Positions 2 to 64,000 of a stretch of DNA of 64,000 nucleotides are shown here, piece after piece (the first letter of the stretch is position 1; each line of letters starts with the position of its first letter). The position numbers and the translations under genes are program-made. Source of the DNA: Candidatus Sulfotelmatobacter sp. (GTDB lineage Bacteria; Acidobacteriota; Terriglobia; Terriglobales; Acidobacteriaceae); NCBI GenBank assembly GCA_030041475.1, contig JASHNU010000092.1, positions 62,001 through 126,000 of the forward strand. Reading direction: 5' to 3'. The notes beneath the pieces are model-generated. The model ran no database searches and was not told the origin of the DNA. It was given only the letters and a program-made list of their open reading frames with translations.

Positions 2-358
2 GATCCCAATCAGGACGGCAACGACCTGAACGACCGTCTCCCCGGCTACAGCCGCAACGGGTTTACCGGGCCGGACTACGCCACTGCCGATCTTCGCCTT
101 ACCAGACTAGTCCGCATTACCGAACGCTGCCGGCTGCACTTCACGGCGGAGTCATTCAACCTCTTCAATCGCGATAACCAGCGCGTTACCATCACCTCGA
201 ACGGGCTGGTGGCGCCGGCGAGCACGTTTGTGCAGAGCAATGTGACGGCCGGGATCGCACCCTATCCCGGCTGTTACACCCTGCCTAATAACTTCATGAA
301 GCCAAACGCGGCCTTCGCCCCGCGGCAAATCCAGCTGGGGTTAAAGCTCGTTTACTAA
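2..358 (+). CDS. TonB-dependent receptor (Oar-like), C-terminal fragment
   Basis: An open frame enters from the left edge and ends at TAA 356-358, leaving 118 residues. It contains NDRLPGYSRNGF, YATADLRLTR and ESFNLFNRDN, and closes with a beta-strand ending in the aromatic residue Tyr (QLGLKLVY). In acidobacterial Oar-like TonB-dependent receptors the last barrel strands have a DLRLxR strand, an FNLFN turn and a terminal aromatic that the BAM complex recognises. The product would be an outer-membrane beta-barrel; its substrate cannot be told from this fragment. The N-terminal carboxypeptidase-like and plug domains lie outside the window. No partner gene follows, since the next gene is rpsU with its own promoter. 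Confidence 0.75.
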   Translation, partial: DPNQDGNDLNDRLPGYSRNGFTGPDYATADLRLTRLVRITERCRLHFTAESFNLFNRDNQRVTITSNGLVAPASTFVQSNVTAGIAPYPGCYTLPNNFMKPNAAFAPRQIQLGLKLVY

Positions 359-12678: not shown

Positions 12679-14703
12679 ATGGGTCTGCGCTGCCTGTTGT
12701 TTTCCTCGGATGAGGGGACATCCGCGTCGATTCGACAGATTCTGGAAGACCTCGGGATTGAGGGAGAATTGTGTCCCGAGGCGGTGACCGCAGTCCAGCA
12801 GGTCGCACAACAGTCCTATCAGTTCGTAATCATCGACTGGGACCATCAGCCCGAGGCCAGTCTTGTCCTGACGGCGGCGCGGGAGCGCAAGGCCAGCGAA
12901 CGCCCTCTCACCCTGGCGATCGTCAGCCATGACCACAACGTGCCCAAAGCGATGCAGGCGGGCGCGAATTCCATTCTGCGCAAGCCGATCGTTCTTAACC
13001 AGGCCAAAGATACTCTGACGACGGCGCGCGATCTGCTGCGCGCGCGTCAGGAGTCAGCCACGGCTGCGGCTGCTGGCGCCACCGCAAAAGCACAGGCGCC
13101 GACTCCGGCTTCCGCGCCGTCCAGCCCGGCAGACGGAAATGAGCGCACTCTGCGGAGCGCAGAGTTTCTGCCATCGTCTGTTCCCTCTCCCGGCGGACAA
13201 TTCGACACCGAAAAATCGGACCTGCAGAAATCCATGGAACAGGCGGCGACGGCCGAAATCGATCCTCTGAAAGAATTGGAACCGATGGCTGCGGCGCTGA
13301 CGCGTCCCAAATCCTCGCCTTCTTCGCCCCCCGCGCCACCAGCAGCGTCTGACGAACCTCGCGGGCTGCAGTGGTATCTGAATCAGCGGGCAGCGGCTGC
13401 ACCGAAAATGGCGCCGCAACCGCCATCCCCAGCCCCGGTCGCTCCGCCTTCGGCTGCGCCGGAATTGTTGGGCTTCGATCAGATGCCGACGCAACCCACA
13501 GAGCGGCGCCAGACTGAAGAAGCGCCCCGAGAGGGGTCGGCTTCAGAACCAGCTACTGATTCTGCCTCGCCTGCGCCAGACACACGCGAAGAGGAGCATG
13601 AAGCGCAGCTCTTCGCCTACATCAGCGGGGAGAAACACGAATCCGAAGACAAACCCCGCCAGTCCTTTCGGCTGGGCAAAGGCACGATCATCGGGGCCCT
13701 ATCACTGGCGGCATGTGCCGTCGCGGCTGCTCCGCAAGCGCCGTGGCATGCGCGGATGCGGGCAATCTTCAAGCAGGAGCAACAAGCCCTCCATGCATGG
13801 CTCAACCCGCCTGTGGTTACGCCTGCCCAGGTTCCCGAGTCTCACGAAAATTTCGGCCGCGCCGGCGACGAGTACAAGCTTCCGGTCGCAGAGAATATTC
13901 CCGACGCCACCACGGACCCGTCGCAGATTCGTGTAACTCCAGTCGTGGACCCCACGGCCAAGAAGACACCCGGCGTCGAAGCGAGCGCAGACCAGCCTGC
14001 ATCACAACCAACTGACGCCGCGGCTTCAAGTCGGGGCGAGTCTGCGCCTGGCTCCGATGTTCAGGTCCCACCGAGTCCGGTTGGTTCGGTCTCGGCAGGC
14101 GGACAGCCGGGCAGCGTCGAAAATGTCCCAGCTGCGAATCCCTCAGCGACTGCTCAGCCAACCGTCGTTCCGCCCCCCGTAGTTCCGCCTCAAACCGTCG
14201 TCCCGCAGCCACCAGTAGTGCAGATGCATCCCGACCAGCCAGTCACCGTTCCGCCTCTTAGTCCATCGGCTCAGCCGGCTCCGCAGAAGCGGCCTCAGGT
14301 CCAGACAGCCTCGAACACAACGACGCCTCCCATTCCTTCCAGCTTGAGGTCGCAAATTGCGACCATGGCGCCCGAGGCGAGCGGGAACAAGCCACCGGAG
14401 GCCGCATTGCCTTCGATTGAACCGGTGAACATCCCGGAAATCGCAGCCCGCGCGCTCCTGACCGATCAACCGGCTCTCGTTTATCCTGCCAGCGCAAAAG
14501 GTCAGCAAGGCACGGTGATTTTGCAAGTCTTGATTGGCCGCGATGGCGCGGTGCAGGACGCCAAGTTCCTGCAGGGATCGTTTGCCTTCGCAAAGGCGGC
14601 GATTGACGCCGCCAAACAGTGGAAGTTCAAGCCATATATGCTGAACGGCCGGCCGGTCTCGATCCAGACCTCGCTGACAATGAGCTTTAAGCCGACTTCC
14701 TAG
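12679..14703 (+). CDS. Receiver-domain / TonB C-terminal fusion protein
   Basis: This 674-residue protein joins three parts. Residues 1-120 form a response-regulator receiver domain: acidic pair D11/E12, phosphoacceptor D53 (FVIIDWD), S83 and K102 (LRKPI) are all present. A long Ala/Pro/Ser linker follows, then one short hydrophobic segment at about 333-352 (GTIIGALSLAACAVAAA) preceded by basic residues. A second Pro/Gln-rich stretch leads to a TonB C-terminal domain at about 587-674 (YPASAKGQQGTVILQVLI, AAKQWKFKPYMLNG). The topology puts the receiver in the cytoplasm and TonB_C in the periplasm, as in ordinary TonB. GAAGAGG before the ATG is the ribosome-binding site. A second receiver N-terminus of similar type starts at 63849. 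Confidence 0.8.
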   Translation: MGLRCLLFSSDEGTSASIRQILEDLGIEGELCPEAVTAVQQVAQQSYQFVIIDWDHQPEASLVLTAARERKASERPLTLAIVSHDHNVPKAMQAGANSILRKPIVLNQAKDTLTTARDLLRARQESATAAAAGATAKAQAPTPASAPSSPADGNERTLRSAEFLPSSVPSPGGQFDTEKSDLQKSMEQAATAEIDPLKELEPMAAALTRPKSSPSSPPAPPAASDEPRGLQWYLNQRAAAAPKMAPQPPSPAPVAPPSAAPELLGFDQMPTQPTERRQTEEAPREGSASEPATDSASPAPDTREEEHEAQLFAYISGEKHESEDKPRQSFRLGKGTIIGALSLAACAVAAAPQAPWHARMRAIFKQEQQALHAWLNPPVVTPAQVPESHENFGRAGDEYKLPVAENIPDATTDPSQIRVTPVVDPTAKKTPGVEASADQPASQPTDAAASSRGESAPGSDVQVPPSPVGSVSAGGQPGSVENVPAANPSATAQPTVVPPPVVPPQTVVPQPPVVQMHPDQPVTVPPLSPSAQPAPQKRPQVQTASNTTTPPIPSSLRSQIATMAPEASGNKPPEAALPSIEPVNIPEIAARALLTDQPALVYPASAKGQQGTVILQVLIGRDGAVQDAKFLQGSFAFAKAAIDAAKQWKFKPYMLNGRPVSIQTSLTMSFKPTS

Positions 14704-14857: not shown

Positions 14858-16066
14858 ATGTCCATGAAAACTAAAGCAGCGGTTCTCGTTTCCTCTTTTG
14901 CCGTACTCCTGTTCGTCGTCGTCGGTTCCATGGGAGGTGTGCATGCCTCTTCCAACGACGGCTCTTACCGCCAACTCCAGGTCTATAGCGAGGTGCTATC
15001 TCGCGTGCAGAGCGAGTACGTGGAGGAGCCCAACATCCCCAAGGTGACCGATGGCGCGCTGCATGGCCTGCTGGAGTCGCTCGACTCGAACTCCAGCTAC
15101 ATGACAGCCGACGCGTACAAGGCGTACAAGGCGCACAAGTCGGAATCGAAAGGCGGGATTGGCGCCGTAATCTCGAAGCGCTTTGGCTATGCGGCGGTCG
15201 TATCGGTCCTGCCGGGTTCGGCGGCGGAGAAGGCTGGAATCGAACCGACCGACATCTTTGAATCCATCGAAGGGCAAAGCACGCGCGACATGTCTCTGCC
15301 TGAGATTCGCAACGTGCTGGCGGGAGCGCCGGGATCGAGCGTGGACGTTTCTGTTGTGCGGGCGCGAAAGGCTGAACCGCAGAAAGTTGTCATTGTGCGC
15401 GAGGTGGAGAGCATCCCGCCCGTTTCCGACAAAATGATGGAAGATGGCGTCGGGTACGTCAGGGCGATCACATTGACGAGGGGCAAAGCGCAGGAGATTG
15501 CGTCCCGCATAAAGACGCTCGAAAAGTCTGGCGCGAAAAAGCTGATTCTCGACTTACGCAATTGTGCCGAAGGTGACGAGGGTGAGGGTGTCGCCACGGC
15601 CAACCTGTTCCTGAATCACGGAACCATCACCTACCTCCAGGGCCAGAAGTACCCGCGCGAGGCATTTAATGCGGATCCGTCGAAGGCGGTCACCACTTTG
15701 CCTCTCGTCGTCCTGGTCAACAAAGGCACAGCAGGGGCGGCCGAAATTGTGTCCGCGGCAGTTCTGGAAAACGCCCGCGGCGATGTAGTCGGCGACAAGA
15801 CTTTCGGTGACGGTTCAGTTCAGAAGACCATAGACTTGGCCGACGGCGGCGCCTTGATTCTTTCCGTGGCCAAGTATTACTCACCCAGCGGAAAGGCCAT
15901 ACAGGACGTGGCGGTTACTCCCAATGTGCTGGTCGCGGACGCTGACGATGGCCTGGGGCCGGACGATGACGAGCAACCATCCGCGACCGAGCCGGAAAAG
16001 CCGAAGCCCACGGTGGACGATCAGCTGAGAAAAGCCGTGGAAGTGCTCAAGAGCCGCAGCAGCTAG
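14858..16066 (+). CDS. S41 C-terminal-processing-peptidase homologue, catalytically dead
   Basis: This 402-residue protein has a signal anchor (AAVLVSSFAVLLFVVVGSMG), an N-terminal helical domain, a PDZ domain at about 96-170 (VVSVLPGSAAEKAGIEPTDI) and the S41 protease domain. Active CtpA/Prc enzymes have a Ser in a TASASEI-type motif and a Lys exactly 25 residues later in TFGKG. Here these read NKGTAGAAEI and TFGDGSVQ, so the Ser position is Gly293 (GGG, 15734-15736) and the Lys position Asp318 (GAC, 15809-15811). Gln322 is kept. The fold is otherwise complete, pointing to a binding or scaffold role in the periplasm. The gene lies just upstream of a PBP1A gene, separated by a terminator-like hairpin. 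Confidence 0.85.
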   Translation: MSMKTKAAVLVSSFAVLLFVVVGSMGGVHASSNDGSYRQLQVYSEVLSRVQSEYVEEPNIPKVTDGALHGLLESLDSNSSYMTADAYKAYKAHKSESKGGIGAVISKRFGYAAVVSVLPGSAAEKAGIEPTDIFESIEGQSTRDMSLPEIRNVLAGAPGSSVDVSVVRARKAEPQKVVIVREVESIPPVSDKMMEDGVGYVRAITLTRGKAQEIASRIKTLEKSGAKKLILDLRNCAEGDEGEGVATANLFLNHGTITYLQGQKYPREAFNADPSKAVTTLPLVVLVNKGTAGAAEIVSAAVLENARGDVVGDKTFGDGSVQKTIDLADGGALILSVAKYYSPSGKAIQDVAVTPNVLVADADDGLGPDDDEQPSATEPEKPKPTVDDQLRKAVEVLKSRSS

Positions 16067-16245: not shown

Positions 16246-18471
16246 ATGAAGTCGCTCTACGAAAATCTTCCCGAGGTCGAAATCGGCGGACGCAAACTGG
16301 TGGGCCGCGTTCTGTTCGGGCTGCTGGTGCTTGTTTCTGCTCTGGTAGGAGCAACCTCCGGGCTGCTGCTCGTCTATACGACGGAACTTCCCCAGGTTGA
16401 GGCGCTCGAAGACTACCGTCCCAGTTCGATCACCGAAATCTACGACGATCACAACCGTGTGGTCGGCTCCTTCGCCCTGCAACGCCGCGTGGTGGCAGGT
16501 TACGATGACTATCCGCAGGTCTTGCGCGATGCGCTGGTCTCCATCGAAGACAAAGACTTTTACAAGCACTCCGGAATCAACTTTTGGCGTATCGTCGGCG
16601 CCGCTTATCGCGATATCGAGTCGGGCGGCAAAGTGCAGGGCGCCTCGACCCTGACCATGCAACTGGCGCGTAATCTATTTCTGTCGCCCGACCGCTCTTT
16701 TCATCGCAAGATCCAGGAGGCCCTGCTGGCCATCCAGATCGAGCGGCACTTCACCAAACCGCAAATCTTCACGCTCTATGCCAACCAGATTTTCCTCGGC
16801 CACGGCGTTTATGGATTCGAGTCGGCCTCGGAGTTCTACTTCAGCAAGCCGGCCAGAAACCTGACCCTGGTCGAAGCCGCATTGCTTGCCGGATTGCCGA
16901 AGGGCCCCACGCTGTATTCGCCAATCCTTCATCCGGACAAGGCGCAGAGGCGTCGCACTCTGGTTATCAACGCCATGCTCGAAGATGGCAAGATCACCGC
17001 CGCGCAGGCAGCCGCGGCGCGAGAGGCGCCGGTTGTTCTCCACGTCGCGCGCGACCCGAATTCTCTGGCTCCTTATTTTGTCGAGGAGATCCGCCGCTAT
17101 CTCGAGGGTAAGTACGGGACGGATCAGGTTCATGAAGGCGGGCTGAGGGTCTACACCTCGCTCGACGTGGACCTGCAGCGGGCCGCCAATCAAGCCGTGC
17201 TCGATGGACTGGCCGCCTACGAGCGCCGCCATGGCTGGAAGGGGCATCTCGAAAATGTTGTGGCGGAGGGCAACGTTCTCGAGAAATATTCCCATCCCGA
17301 CTGGGATGACGAGCCGGAAGTTGGTGGATACATCCACGGACTCGTCACTTCCGCGGGGCCCGGCATCGCCACGCTGAAATTCGGCCGCTATACCGCGGCG
17401 CTGGGCCAGCCCGACGTGGCCTGGACCCAGCAGAAACTGGCCGACATCTTGAACGCGGGCGACATCTGCTATGTGAAGATCGTCACCTTGGGCGCGAACG
17501 GCGCGGCGCGCGTTACGCTGGAGCAGGATTCCGGCGCGCAGGGAGCTTTGCTTGCCCTGGACAACACCACCGGCGCTATCAAGGCGATGGTGGGCGGGCG
17601 CGATTTCAACGATTCGAAATTCGACCGCGCCACGCAGGCCCTGCGCCAGGTAGGCTCGTCGTTCAAGCCCTATGTTTACACGACCGTGATCGATCAGGGC
17701 GCCAGCCCCGACGACACCGTTCTCGACGAGCCGGTGAGTTTCGAAACGCCCTCGGGTGAGTATTCGCCGCACAATTACGATGAAAAATTCGAAGGCATCA
17801 TCACGCTGCGACGGGCACTGGCGCAGTCGCGCAATATTCCGGCGCTGAAGCTGGCTAATAAAGTCGGCATCAAGACCGTGATCGATTACGCGGAGCGCTT
17901 CGGCATCACTTCGAAGCTTCCGCCATACCTGCCGGTGGCTCTGGGATCGGCCGAGATCACGCTGATGGAGCAGACGTCGGCCTACAGCGTTTTTCCCAAC
18001 GACGGCGTGCGCGTGACGCCGCGCTACATCACCCGCGTGACCGACTATGAAGGGCGTGTGCTGGAGGAGGATTTTCCCGAGGTCAAGGATGTAATCAGCG
18101 AGCGCACCGCCCGCATCATGACTGCGATGTTGCGTGAGGTCGTGCTGCATGGCACGGCCATCGCCGCGGCGAAGTTGCCCTTTCCCGCGGCCGGCAAGAC
18201 TGGAACGACGAACGATTTCACCGATGCATGGTTTATGGGATTTACGCCCACGATGACTTGCGGAGTGTGGGTCGGCTACGACGAAAAGAAATCGCTCGGG
18301 GCGAAGGAAACCGGCGCACACGCCGCGCTGCCCATCTGGATGAACTTCATGACGGTGGCAATGGCCGGAAAAGATGCCGGCGACTTTCAGCCTCCGCCGG
18401 CCACGCCGCATAACGTCGCCCAAAAAGTTGACACGCCGGATGCGGCGCCGGCGACGGAAGAATCACATTAA
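16246..18471 (+). CDS. Class A penicillin-binding protein (PBP1A type)
   Basis: This 741-residue bifunctional peptidoglycan synthase has a signal anchor (FGLLVLVSALVGATSGLLLV). The GT51 glycosyltransferase domain follows, with catalytic Glu in ALVSIEDKDFYKHSGI near residue 99, then QGASTLTMQLARNLFL. The transpeptidase domain has SxxK in VGSSFKPY (Ser near 471), SRN in AQSRNIPAL and KTG in AGKTGTTND near 650. A divergent segment at about 330-420 separates the two domains, as in PBP1A proteins. The C-terminal 40 residues are Pro/Ala-rich. The enzyme polymerises and cross-links glycan strands in the periplasm. The ATG is preceded by CGGCCGG rather than a good Shine-Dalgarno. Confidence 0.93.
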   Translation: MKSLYENLPEVEIGGRKLVGRVLFGLLVLVSALVGATSGLLLVYTTELPQVEALEDYRPSSITEIYDDHNRVVGSFALQRRVVAGYDDYPQVLRDALVSIEDKDFYKHSGINFWRIVGAAYRDIESGGKVQGASTLTMQLARNLFLSPDRSFHRKIQEALLAIQIERHFTKPQIFTLYANQIFLGHGVYGFESASEFYFSKPARNLTLVEAALLAGLPKGPTLYSPILHPDKAQRRRTLVINAMLEDGKITAAQAAAAREAPVVLHVARDPNSLAPYFVEEIRRYLEGKYGTDQVHEGGLRVYTSLDVDLQRAANQAVLDGLAAYERRHGWKGHLENVVAEGNVLEKYSHPDWDDEPEVGGYIHGLVTSAGPGIATLKFGRYTAALGQPDVAWTQQKLADILNAGDICYVKIVTLGANGAARVTLEQDSGAQGALLALDNTTGAIKAMVGGRDFNDSKFDRATQALRQVGSSFKPYVYTTVIDQGASPDDTVLDEPVSFETPSGEYSPHNYDEKFEGIITLRRALAQSRNIPALKLANKVGIKTVIDYAERFGITSKLPPYLPVALGSAEITLMEQTSAYSVFPNDGVRVTPRYITRVTDYEGRVLEEDFPEVKDVISERTARIMTAMLREVVLHGTAIAAAKLPFPAAGKTGTTNDFTDAWFMGFTPTMTCGVWVGYDEKKSLGAKETGAHAALPIWMNFMTVAMAGKDAGDFQPPPATPHNVAQKVDTPDAAPATEESH

Positions 18472-63848: not shown

Positions 63849-64000
63849 ATGACGTTGGATTCCCTGATCCTGAGCCAGGACCCGGAATTGGTGCGTGTGA
63901 TCCGGCCCACGCTCGAGAAGCTCTCGATTGACGTGGAAATCTGTCACGAGGCGCGCGCCGCTGCCGACATATTGATCTCGGAAAAATTCGACGCCGTGAT
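63849..64000 (+). CDS. Receiver-domain protein, N-terminal fragment
   Basis: The first 50 codons of a gene cut by the window edge. MTLDSLILSQDPELVRVIRP, TLEKLSIDVEICHEA and an ISEKFDAV strand match the start of a response-regulator receiver domain; the phosphoacceptor Asp would come just after the cut. The pattern is close to that of the receiver/TonB protein at 12679 (LLFSSDEGTSASIRQILEDL, ELCPEA). What follows the receiver is unknown. ATG with TAGAAT 7 nt upstream, no Shine-Dalgarno. Confidence 0.6.
   Translation, partial: MTLDSLILSQDPELVRVIRPTLEKLSIDVEICHEARAAADILISEKFDAV

Follow-up and report, generated by a model that had tools for sequence, protein, structure and literature searches.

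A pseudo-receiver joined to a TonB C-terminal domain, a candidate trans-envelope adaptor in a soil acidobacterium

The attachment of a signalling domain to a TonB C-terminal domain (TonB_C) by way of a single membrane segment has been described for the Agl-Glt gliding machinery of Myxococcus xanthus. As given in the available text of PMC3169522, GltG is a protein of 640 amino acids with an FHA domain at residues 26-90, a predicted transmembrane (TM) segment, and a TonB_C domain at residues 570-637, and the available part of PMC5349195 presents GltG and GltJ as modular proteins of the TolA/TonB-like kind, each having one TM helix together with TonBC motifs. Both sources, to the extent available, report that GltG interacted with the motor protein AglR in a two-hybrid test. 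For TonB itself, the accessible portion of PMC10907165 describes a D-box just after the TM helix, where hydrophobic and hydrophilic residues alternate between flanking prolines, as the site that binds ExbD. Receiver domains that depart from the canonical active site are likewise known. In the available text of PMC12632262, a pseudo-receiver is defined as a recognisable receiver that lacks at least one of five active-site residues; the Asp is retained in about 65% of them, and the mechanisms by which they are activated and inactivated are said to "remain a mystery". For instance, in FrzS (PMC1974792, in the part available) Ser10 replaces the residue equivalent to CheY Asp13, Mg2+ is not bound, and function is kept without phosphorylation.

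The gene described here lies in the window, by which is meant the whole stretch of 64,000 nucleotides that was analysed, from a soil acidobacterium represented by a 4.63-Mb draft genome that is 99.6% complete. A single open frame with an ATG start (12679..14703, plus strand) encodes a protein of 674 amino acids, in which a receiver fold at residues 1-125 (12679..13053) is followed by an Ala/Pro linker, a hydrophobic membrane segment at residues 332-350 (13672..13728), a second linker, and a TonB_C domain at residues 599-671 (14473..14691). The TonB_C match in Pfam lies above its cut-off (3.5e-16), and the Response_reg match at residues 15-108 (1.3e-4, 22.6 bits) falls under the 30.2-bit cut-off. 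When 33 aligned members of the family were scanned singly at E values up to 0.1, TonB_C was found in all 33 and Response_reg in 31. An AlphaFold model computed from an alignment of 33 family members predicts a canonical (beta-alpha)5 receiver fold within residues 1-138, with strands at 4-8, 28-32, 49-53, 77-82 and 98-101 and pLDDT values, averaged in ten-residue blocks, mostly of 89-95 (one block at 77, the final two at 83 and 70). Helices are modelled at 334-350 and 356-375 and a TonB-like domain at 587-670; the linkers are largely below a pLDDT of 50, and the pTM of the whole is 0.40. Structure searches, which for the receiver part covered in effect residues 1-135, matched solved receivers (Foldseek best 1.8e-7; VIA best Z 18.2, rmsd 1.8, 132 residues aligned), and the C-terminal 90 residues matched the solved TonB structures 6i97 and 6fip (2e-4). 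Thus, the layout of receiver, TM segment and TonB_C in the original prediction, which was made from the DNA alone, is supported by Pfam, the model, structure matches and hydropathy, and residues D53, S83 and K102 are as it gave them. At the start of the window, the stretch at 2-355, which had been taken for a receptor tail (2-358), encodes the end of a beta-barrel protein of the outer membrane (OMP_b-brl_4, 4.2e-8).

The same layout recurs in other genomes of the window's family. Among 60 such genomes (59 genera), 38 hold this type of receiver at E <= 1e-20, and receiver and TonB_C share one frame in 30 of 34 distinct receiver-bearing ORFs from 17 of the 60 genomes (the exceptions are L012, L018, L021 and L047), a proportion that is no unbiased share because the loci had been selected by resemblance to the window protein. 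Many further receiver matches, with frames of 230-430 amino acids, are presumed to be mostly receiver-PilZ proteins, a fusion of the same receiver type that Pfam confirms for three proteins encoded in the window's genome. Scanning of named genomes yielded 37 acidobacterial loci from metagenome genomes, many of them labelled Candidatus Sulfotelmatobacter; these are biased toward two short peptides because the query was made from five family members and excluded the window protein, and eight of them (L059, L063, L065, L066, L067, L071, L073 and L085) are contigs already in the same-family set. The closest relative, L077, shows 85% identity to the window protein over its length. Of 149 genomes from across the phylum, 42 gave a receiver match at 1e-8 and four, all from the window's family, gave one at 1e-20 or better, and in 121 genomes of the class the end-to-end matches among those listed (up to ten candidates scored per genome) came from G000 and G006 only. 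This distribution points to a lineage-specific family, not a chance fusion. Production of two separate proteins by internal initiation looks unlikely, as all 54 members read retain the fusion in one frame; at three loci (L012/L073 on one contig, L021/L054 on one contig, and L091) the frame is broken. The proteins fall into four groups: clade A1, which includes the window protein (about 610-710 amino acids), its sister clade A2 (about 430-560 amino acids), group B, whose members start like MSYQALLFC, and group C, the tandem partner of B. A search with six peptides found no relatives on viral contigs. The titles and abstracts of the literature searched, outside which most subscription papers lie, mention no receiver-TonB or PilZ-TonB protein.

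The original prediction regarded the receiver as complete, with D11/E12 as the Mg2+-binding acidic pair. The best-supported register instead places the pair (DD1/DD2) on S9 and S10 (12703..12708). In the model, counted back from D53, strand 1 ends at residue 8 and helix 1 starts at residue 12; alignment to seven OmpR-type regulators of neighbouring operons gives the same register under three MAFFT settings and with hhalign; and so do the starting residues of the structural alignments, on what we take to be the numbering of the solved receivers. In contrast, two of five HMMER alignments printed, both to CheY variants, place D11 on the second acidic position by a shift of one residue, a register that would save DD2 only. 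Family conservation was read from a receiver alignment in which identical receivers were merged and fragments of up to 110 amino acids dropped (69 rows reduced to 60), and which includes one receiver-PilZ protein and a few proteins with TonB_C in another frame or off the contig. Neither position 9 nor position 10 carries D or E in any of the 59 readable relatives (one row is gapped at positions 9-12), and D11 is frequent (44/59). D53, at the phosphoacceptor position (12835..12837), is invariant (60/60), the conserved lysine K102 (12982..12984) is K in 53 and R in five of the 60, and P103 is found in 59. At position 83, where the window protein has S, the family has S in 14/60 and T in none, and the canonical Ser/Thr switch is thus unconserved. 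Seven receiver-PilZ copies printed from the window's genome, read by eye, also have no D or E at positions 9-10.

In the best-supported register, the predicted domain is thus a pseudo-receiver by the definition in the available text of PMC12632262, and, given the proportion of pseudo-receivers that keep the Asp according to that text, the retention of D53 is not odd in itself. A phosphorylation-competent receiver as the default is rejected on the register checks and the count of zero acidic residues in 59, with some room left by the CheY-variant alignments; the invariance of D53 and the frequent D11 could mean a residual or unusual phospho-chemistry.

The window gene is flanked by genes for a FAD oxidoreductase and an S41 peptidase. 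The latter, a CtpA-like protein with a PDZ domain (14858..16066, plus strand), is the conserved next gene, and a bifunctional penicillin-binding protein of PBP1A type (16246..18471, plus strand) is the conserved second gene. Of the 21 clade-A1 loci for which downstream sequence is available, 20 (all but L088) have ctpA as the following gene in the same orientation; in L093, it is separated from the TonB_C gene by two predicted ORFs. All 18 loci that extend as far as the second gene contain pbp1A, which in one of them, L080, lies on the opposite strand. Excluded from these counts are L084 and L095, for want of downstream sequence, and L091, which has a broken frame and yielded no receiver call. 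L073, where the frame between head and tail is broken and the available flank holds neither ctpA nor pbp1A, was counted in neither clade. Flanking genes were called by a simple script, and small ORFs may be spurious. The ctpA/pbp1A gene order may be inherited without functional meaning; other groups of receiver-TonB_C proteins adjoin uvrB or pyruvate dehydrogenase genes.

The arrangement in clade A2 bears on the regulatory scheme of the original prediction, in which phosphorylation of the receiver by a histidine kinase would control an energy-transducing TonB. No kinase lies beside the window gene. Of the 13 A2 loci, 11 have a histidine kinase as the next gene, in two of them (L060 and L064) after a predicted opposite-strand ORF of 110 and 254 amino acids, respectively; in L068 and L069 an alpha-amylase takes its place. 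An OmpR-type regulator comes after the kinase in seven loci, and a SpoIIE-type phosphatase and a sigma factor follow in two annotated ones (L045, on the same contig as L065, and L061). Further downstream, ctpA is found in L061, L065 and L069, and likewise, by similarity, for the G051 gene. The A2 kinase has no full-length match in the window's genome; in G000, G006 and G051, it has none at E <= 1e-20, the best matches there covering the C-terminal half only (34-35%). The synteny of the two clades and this search indicate that linkage to a kinase is a property of the sister clade, not of the window gene. Kinase control of an energised TonB thus draws on the A2 operons and on the conservation of D53 and K102, and is opposed by the loss of acidic residues at the Mg2+ positions, by the unconserved switch residue and by the kinase search.

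The second half of that scheme, coupling to a motor, concerns the membrane segment. In classical TonB proteins coupled to ExbBD, this segment carries a motif of the S-x3-H type, of which S-x3-H/Q/N is the local form. No such motif is present in the segment of the window protein or, by a narrow window, in any of 54 family members; one wider window rule finds it in three (L068, L050 and L053), always within the polar stretch that precedes the TM segment, against 2.2 expected by shuffling. Under the wider window, 11 of 21 TonB_C paralogues without a signalling head in the window's genome carry the motif, against 1.4 expected, two of them adjoining ExbD matches; many of these 21 resemble short exported proteins, and among the 11, L112 is without a hydrophobic window and L115 has its motif in the flank. 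The motif is found in none of the GAF-, PilZ- and kinase-like-headed TonB_C paralogues of this genome, nor in its second receiver copy. A narrower count, made with windows of unequal length and with L008 and L111 outside the "classical" group, gave nine of 12 head-less and none of four signal-headed proteins. Since ten of the 21 head-less paralogues also do without the motif, its absence argues against coupling to ExbB and does not prove the lack of it. A search for linked ExbD returned four matches in the genome, on contigs C93, C57 (two) and C50, and none on C64, the contig of the window gene. An energised TonB is therefore unsupported: the motif stands at chance in the family, it is enriched in the head-less paralogues, and ExbD is encoded elsewhere. 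Of the two roles that the original prediction allowed for the TonB part, that of linking to the outer membrane is favoured by this analysis and that of energy transduction is poorly supported, and the motif and ExbD results, added to those for the receiver and the kinase, leave kinase control of an energy-transducing TonB improbable.

Coupling to a motor other than ExbBD, of the TolQR or AglQRS kind, would make the protein a force transducer, as proposed for GltG in Myxococcus gliding. The layout of a cytosolic signalling domain, a single TM segment and TonB_C is shared with GltG, as far as the available texts of PMC3169522 and PMC5349195 describe it, but the head is a receiver and not an FHA domain, and no motor gene was recognised in the gene maps, in which a minority of flanking ORFs was annotated singly; we regard this proposal, too, as rather unlikely.

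The orientation of the protein rests on hydropathy and charge. The segment at 332-350 has a mean Kyte-Doolittle value of 1.65, and the best window of each of the 54 members ranges from 1.38 to 2.73. All 13 clade-A2 proteins are more positive in the flank before the TM segment than in the one after it (N-in), whereas 13 of 20 clade-A1 proteins, that of the window among them, show the opposite bias, which, judged from sequence, speaks against N-in by the positive-inside rule. As the flank charges of the two clades conflict, the N-in/C-out topology is one that we infer. If the hydrophobic stretch did not span the membrane, or were inserted inversely, the TonB_C-like domain would stay in the cytoplasm, which would suit the moderate hydrophobicity of the window segment and the A1 charges; such an arrangement is very improbable in view of the hydrophobic window of at least 1.38 in all 54 members, the uniform charges of A2, and the periplasmic location of TonB_C in known cases (PMC5349195, in the part available). 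Two stretches outside the domains are conserved in 20 clade-A1 proteins. One is an island at about residues 155-201 (13141..13281), E...R.GEFL...PG.QFDTE...ELEP, in the presumed cytoplasmic linker. The other, C-terminal of the TM segment at residues 391-428 (13849..13962; NFGRAGDEYKLPVAENIPDATTDPSQIRVTPVVDPTAK), contains a strand-like IRVxPV motif and is the best conserved outside both domains, with a mean identity of 0.91 in block 406-420. A sequence of the form [IV]x[VI]xP occurs 60-100 residues past the start of the TM window in 20/20 A1 and 9/13 A2 proteins, and in few of groups B and C. This motif resembles the TonB D-box without fitting its pattern as given in the available text of PMC10907165, lying about 65 residues past the TM segment and having Pro where the D-box is hydrophobic.

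The window's genome has 29 TonB_C matches, and these include GAF-TM-TonB_C (contig C51), PilZ-TM-TonB_C (C38) and kinase-like-TM-TonB_C (C3) proteins, the last with a TonB_C score just under the cut-off; the presence of these three in one genome indicates that the pairing of a TonB_C tail with a signalling head is a recurrent arrangement. In relatives, AAA-, PilZ-GAF- and PilZ-headed forms occur as well. In a TonB_C tree of 37 hand-chosen rows (L107, L110, L120, L122, L124 and the second TonB_C of two proteins were omitted), 15 of 34 inner branches are open and the signal-headed rows require two label changes and are not resolved as a single clade, with the kinase-like-headed row apart on a long branch; the tree is too poorly resolved to tell a single origin of the signal-headed forms. 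The window TonB_C is placed with that of an ExbD-linked TonB in a group of 25 rows with modest support (85/81). This grouping, weakly supported as it is, would agree with an outside-in sensor, in which TonB_C senses the occupancy of a Ton-box receptor or the state of the cell wall and the pseudo-receiver relays it to a linked kinase or regulator, as in A2, or to c-di-GMP proteins. The kinase operon of A2 and the fusion of the same receiver family to PilZ domains lend it some weight, but the window gene is without a kinase at its side, and we consider a sensor of this kind unlikely, if less so than either scheme of motor coupling.

The reading that we favour, with moderate confidence, is that the window protein is a single-pass trans-envelope adaptor, with a docking head that acts independently of phosphorylation and a TonB_C tail, and not a transport motor powered by ExbBD. 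It builds on what is seen in the sequence and the model, namely a receiver fold that has D53 and K102 and is without both Mg2+-holding residues, a hydrophobic segment, Ala/Pro linkers, TonB_C, and a place next to the S41 peptidase and PBP1A genes. Most of the case is carried by the acidic-pair result; the argument from the TM motif was softened by the wider-window count. In the N-in/C-out orientation, the pseudo-receiver would serve as the docking head, its binding face used without phosphoryl switching by analogy with FrzS, the linker would cross the periplasm, and the tail would clamp a putative outer-membrane partner (by a Ton-box peptide) or peptidoglycan. The protein would thereby couple a cytoplasmic partner to the condition of the outer envelope, or inform it of that condition, most likely in cell-wall maintenance involving CtpA and PBP1A. 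Control of an energised TonB by a histidine kinase, as first predicted, finds little support for this protein.

A broader and more speculative suggestion, which we think possible without holding it probable, is that in Acidobacteria a variety of cytoplasmic heads (pseudo-receiver, GAF, PilZ, kinase-like and AAA) share TonB_C as a general-purpose tail across the envelope, forming conduits from cytosol to outer envelope that need no ExbBD motor, and that the pseudo-receiver branch governs cell-wall synthesis through CtpA/PBP1A while its sister clade is wired to a dedicated histidine kinase. If so, interchangeable heads on TonB_C tails throughout a lineage would widen the roles of TonB-like proteins from the powering of uptake to signalling or anchoring. 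Only a small number of proteins are known that might on their own relay signals between cytoplasm and outer membrane. The family also offers many natural variants with an invariant Asp, together with a kinase-linked sister clade, as a system for testing how pseudo-receivers are controlled.

Each of the known systems matches the window family in part. FrzS, in the available text of PMC1974792, is alike in its receiver fold, in the Ser at the second acidic position and in the unconserved switch Thr, but is without the phosphoacceptor Asp that is invariant here, and in the window family the receiver is tied to TM-TonB_C. The acidobacterial receiver-PilZ proteins share the receiver family and the absence of D/E at positions 9-10, yet end in one or more PilZ domains instead of TM-TonB_C. 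Classical TonB coupled to ExbBD has the single TM segment, the Pro-rich linker and TonB_C in common with the window protein, which differs in having about 330 residues ahead of a TM segment without S-x3-H/Q/N and in being encoded on a contig without an ExbD match. The nearest precedent for the layout, on the available texts, is GltG, where a signalling head, a single hydrophobic segment and TonB_C are combined in the same way; in the window family, the head is a pseudo-receiver fold with no FHA domain, and the neighbours are ctpA/pbp1A or a kinase operon.

In two loci of clade A2, the sister group of the receiver-TonB_C clade represented in the window, the genes 3' of the receiver-TonB_C gene encode a histidine kinase, an OmpR-type regulator, a SpoIIE-type phosphatase and a sigma-70-family factor (L045:7801-11903 and L061:9505-13577, in locus coordinates). 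The place of the kinase is taken by an alpha-amylase in two other A2 loci (L068:6060-7736 and L069:9295-11118), and in the first of these the alpha-amylase is followed by a glycosyltransferase and by a protein with mechanosensitive-channel-type transmembrane helices. Among the ctpA/pbp1A loci, ctpA and pbp1A are separated by one or more predicted ORFs on the opposite strand in L079, L085 and L087.

Two different types of receiver-TonB_C gene, from groups C and B, lie in tandem in L041, L042, L043, L046 and L052, adjoining uvrB or pyruvate dehydrogenase genes, with the neighbours named by sequence reading rather than by Pfam. The genome of the window also carries a second receiver-TonB_C gene, of group B (C101:2-355 and C57:2-1627); this gene seems to be split by a contig break, with its head and tail at the ends of different contigs.

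The window opens with the C-terminal part of a beta-barrel protein of the outer membrane (2..355; OMP_b-brl_4, 4.2e-8). At the other end, a second protein from the receiver family of the study protein, this one with a PilZ domain, begins at 63849..64000 and runs past the edge; the full 243-aa protein (L125:850-1578) has its PilZ domain at 1.6e-17, and its receiver likewise lacks D/E at positions 9-10.

TonB_C tails are also found behind other heads. In the window's genome, a single 448-aa frame (L123:2425-3771, contig C3) joins a protein-kinase-like domain, one transmembrane segment and a weak TonB_C match. This protein may be a pseudokinase, because HGR replaces the usual catalytic-loop motif, HRD. 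In other genomes of the same family, the heads are an AAA-ATPase (L033:13-2205), PilZ-GAF (L034:280-2109) and PilZ (L036:610-1959), the AAA-headed form resembling GspA/ExeA joined to a GspB-like tail.
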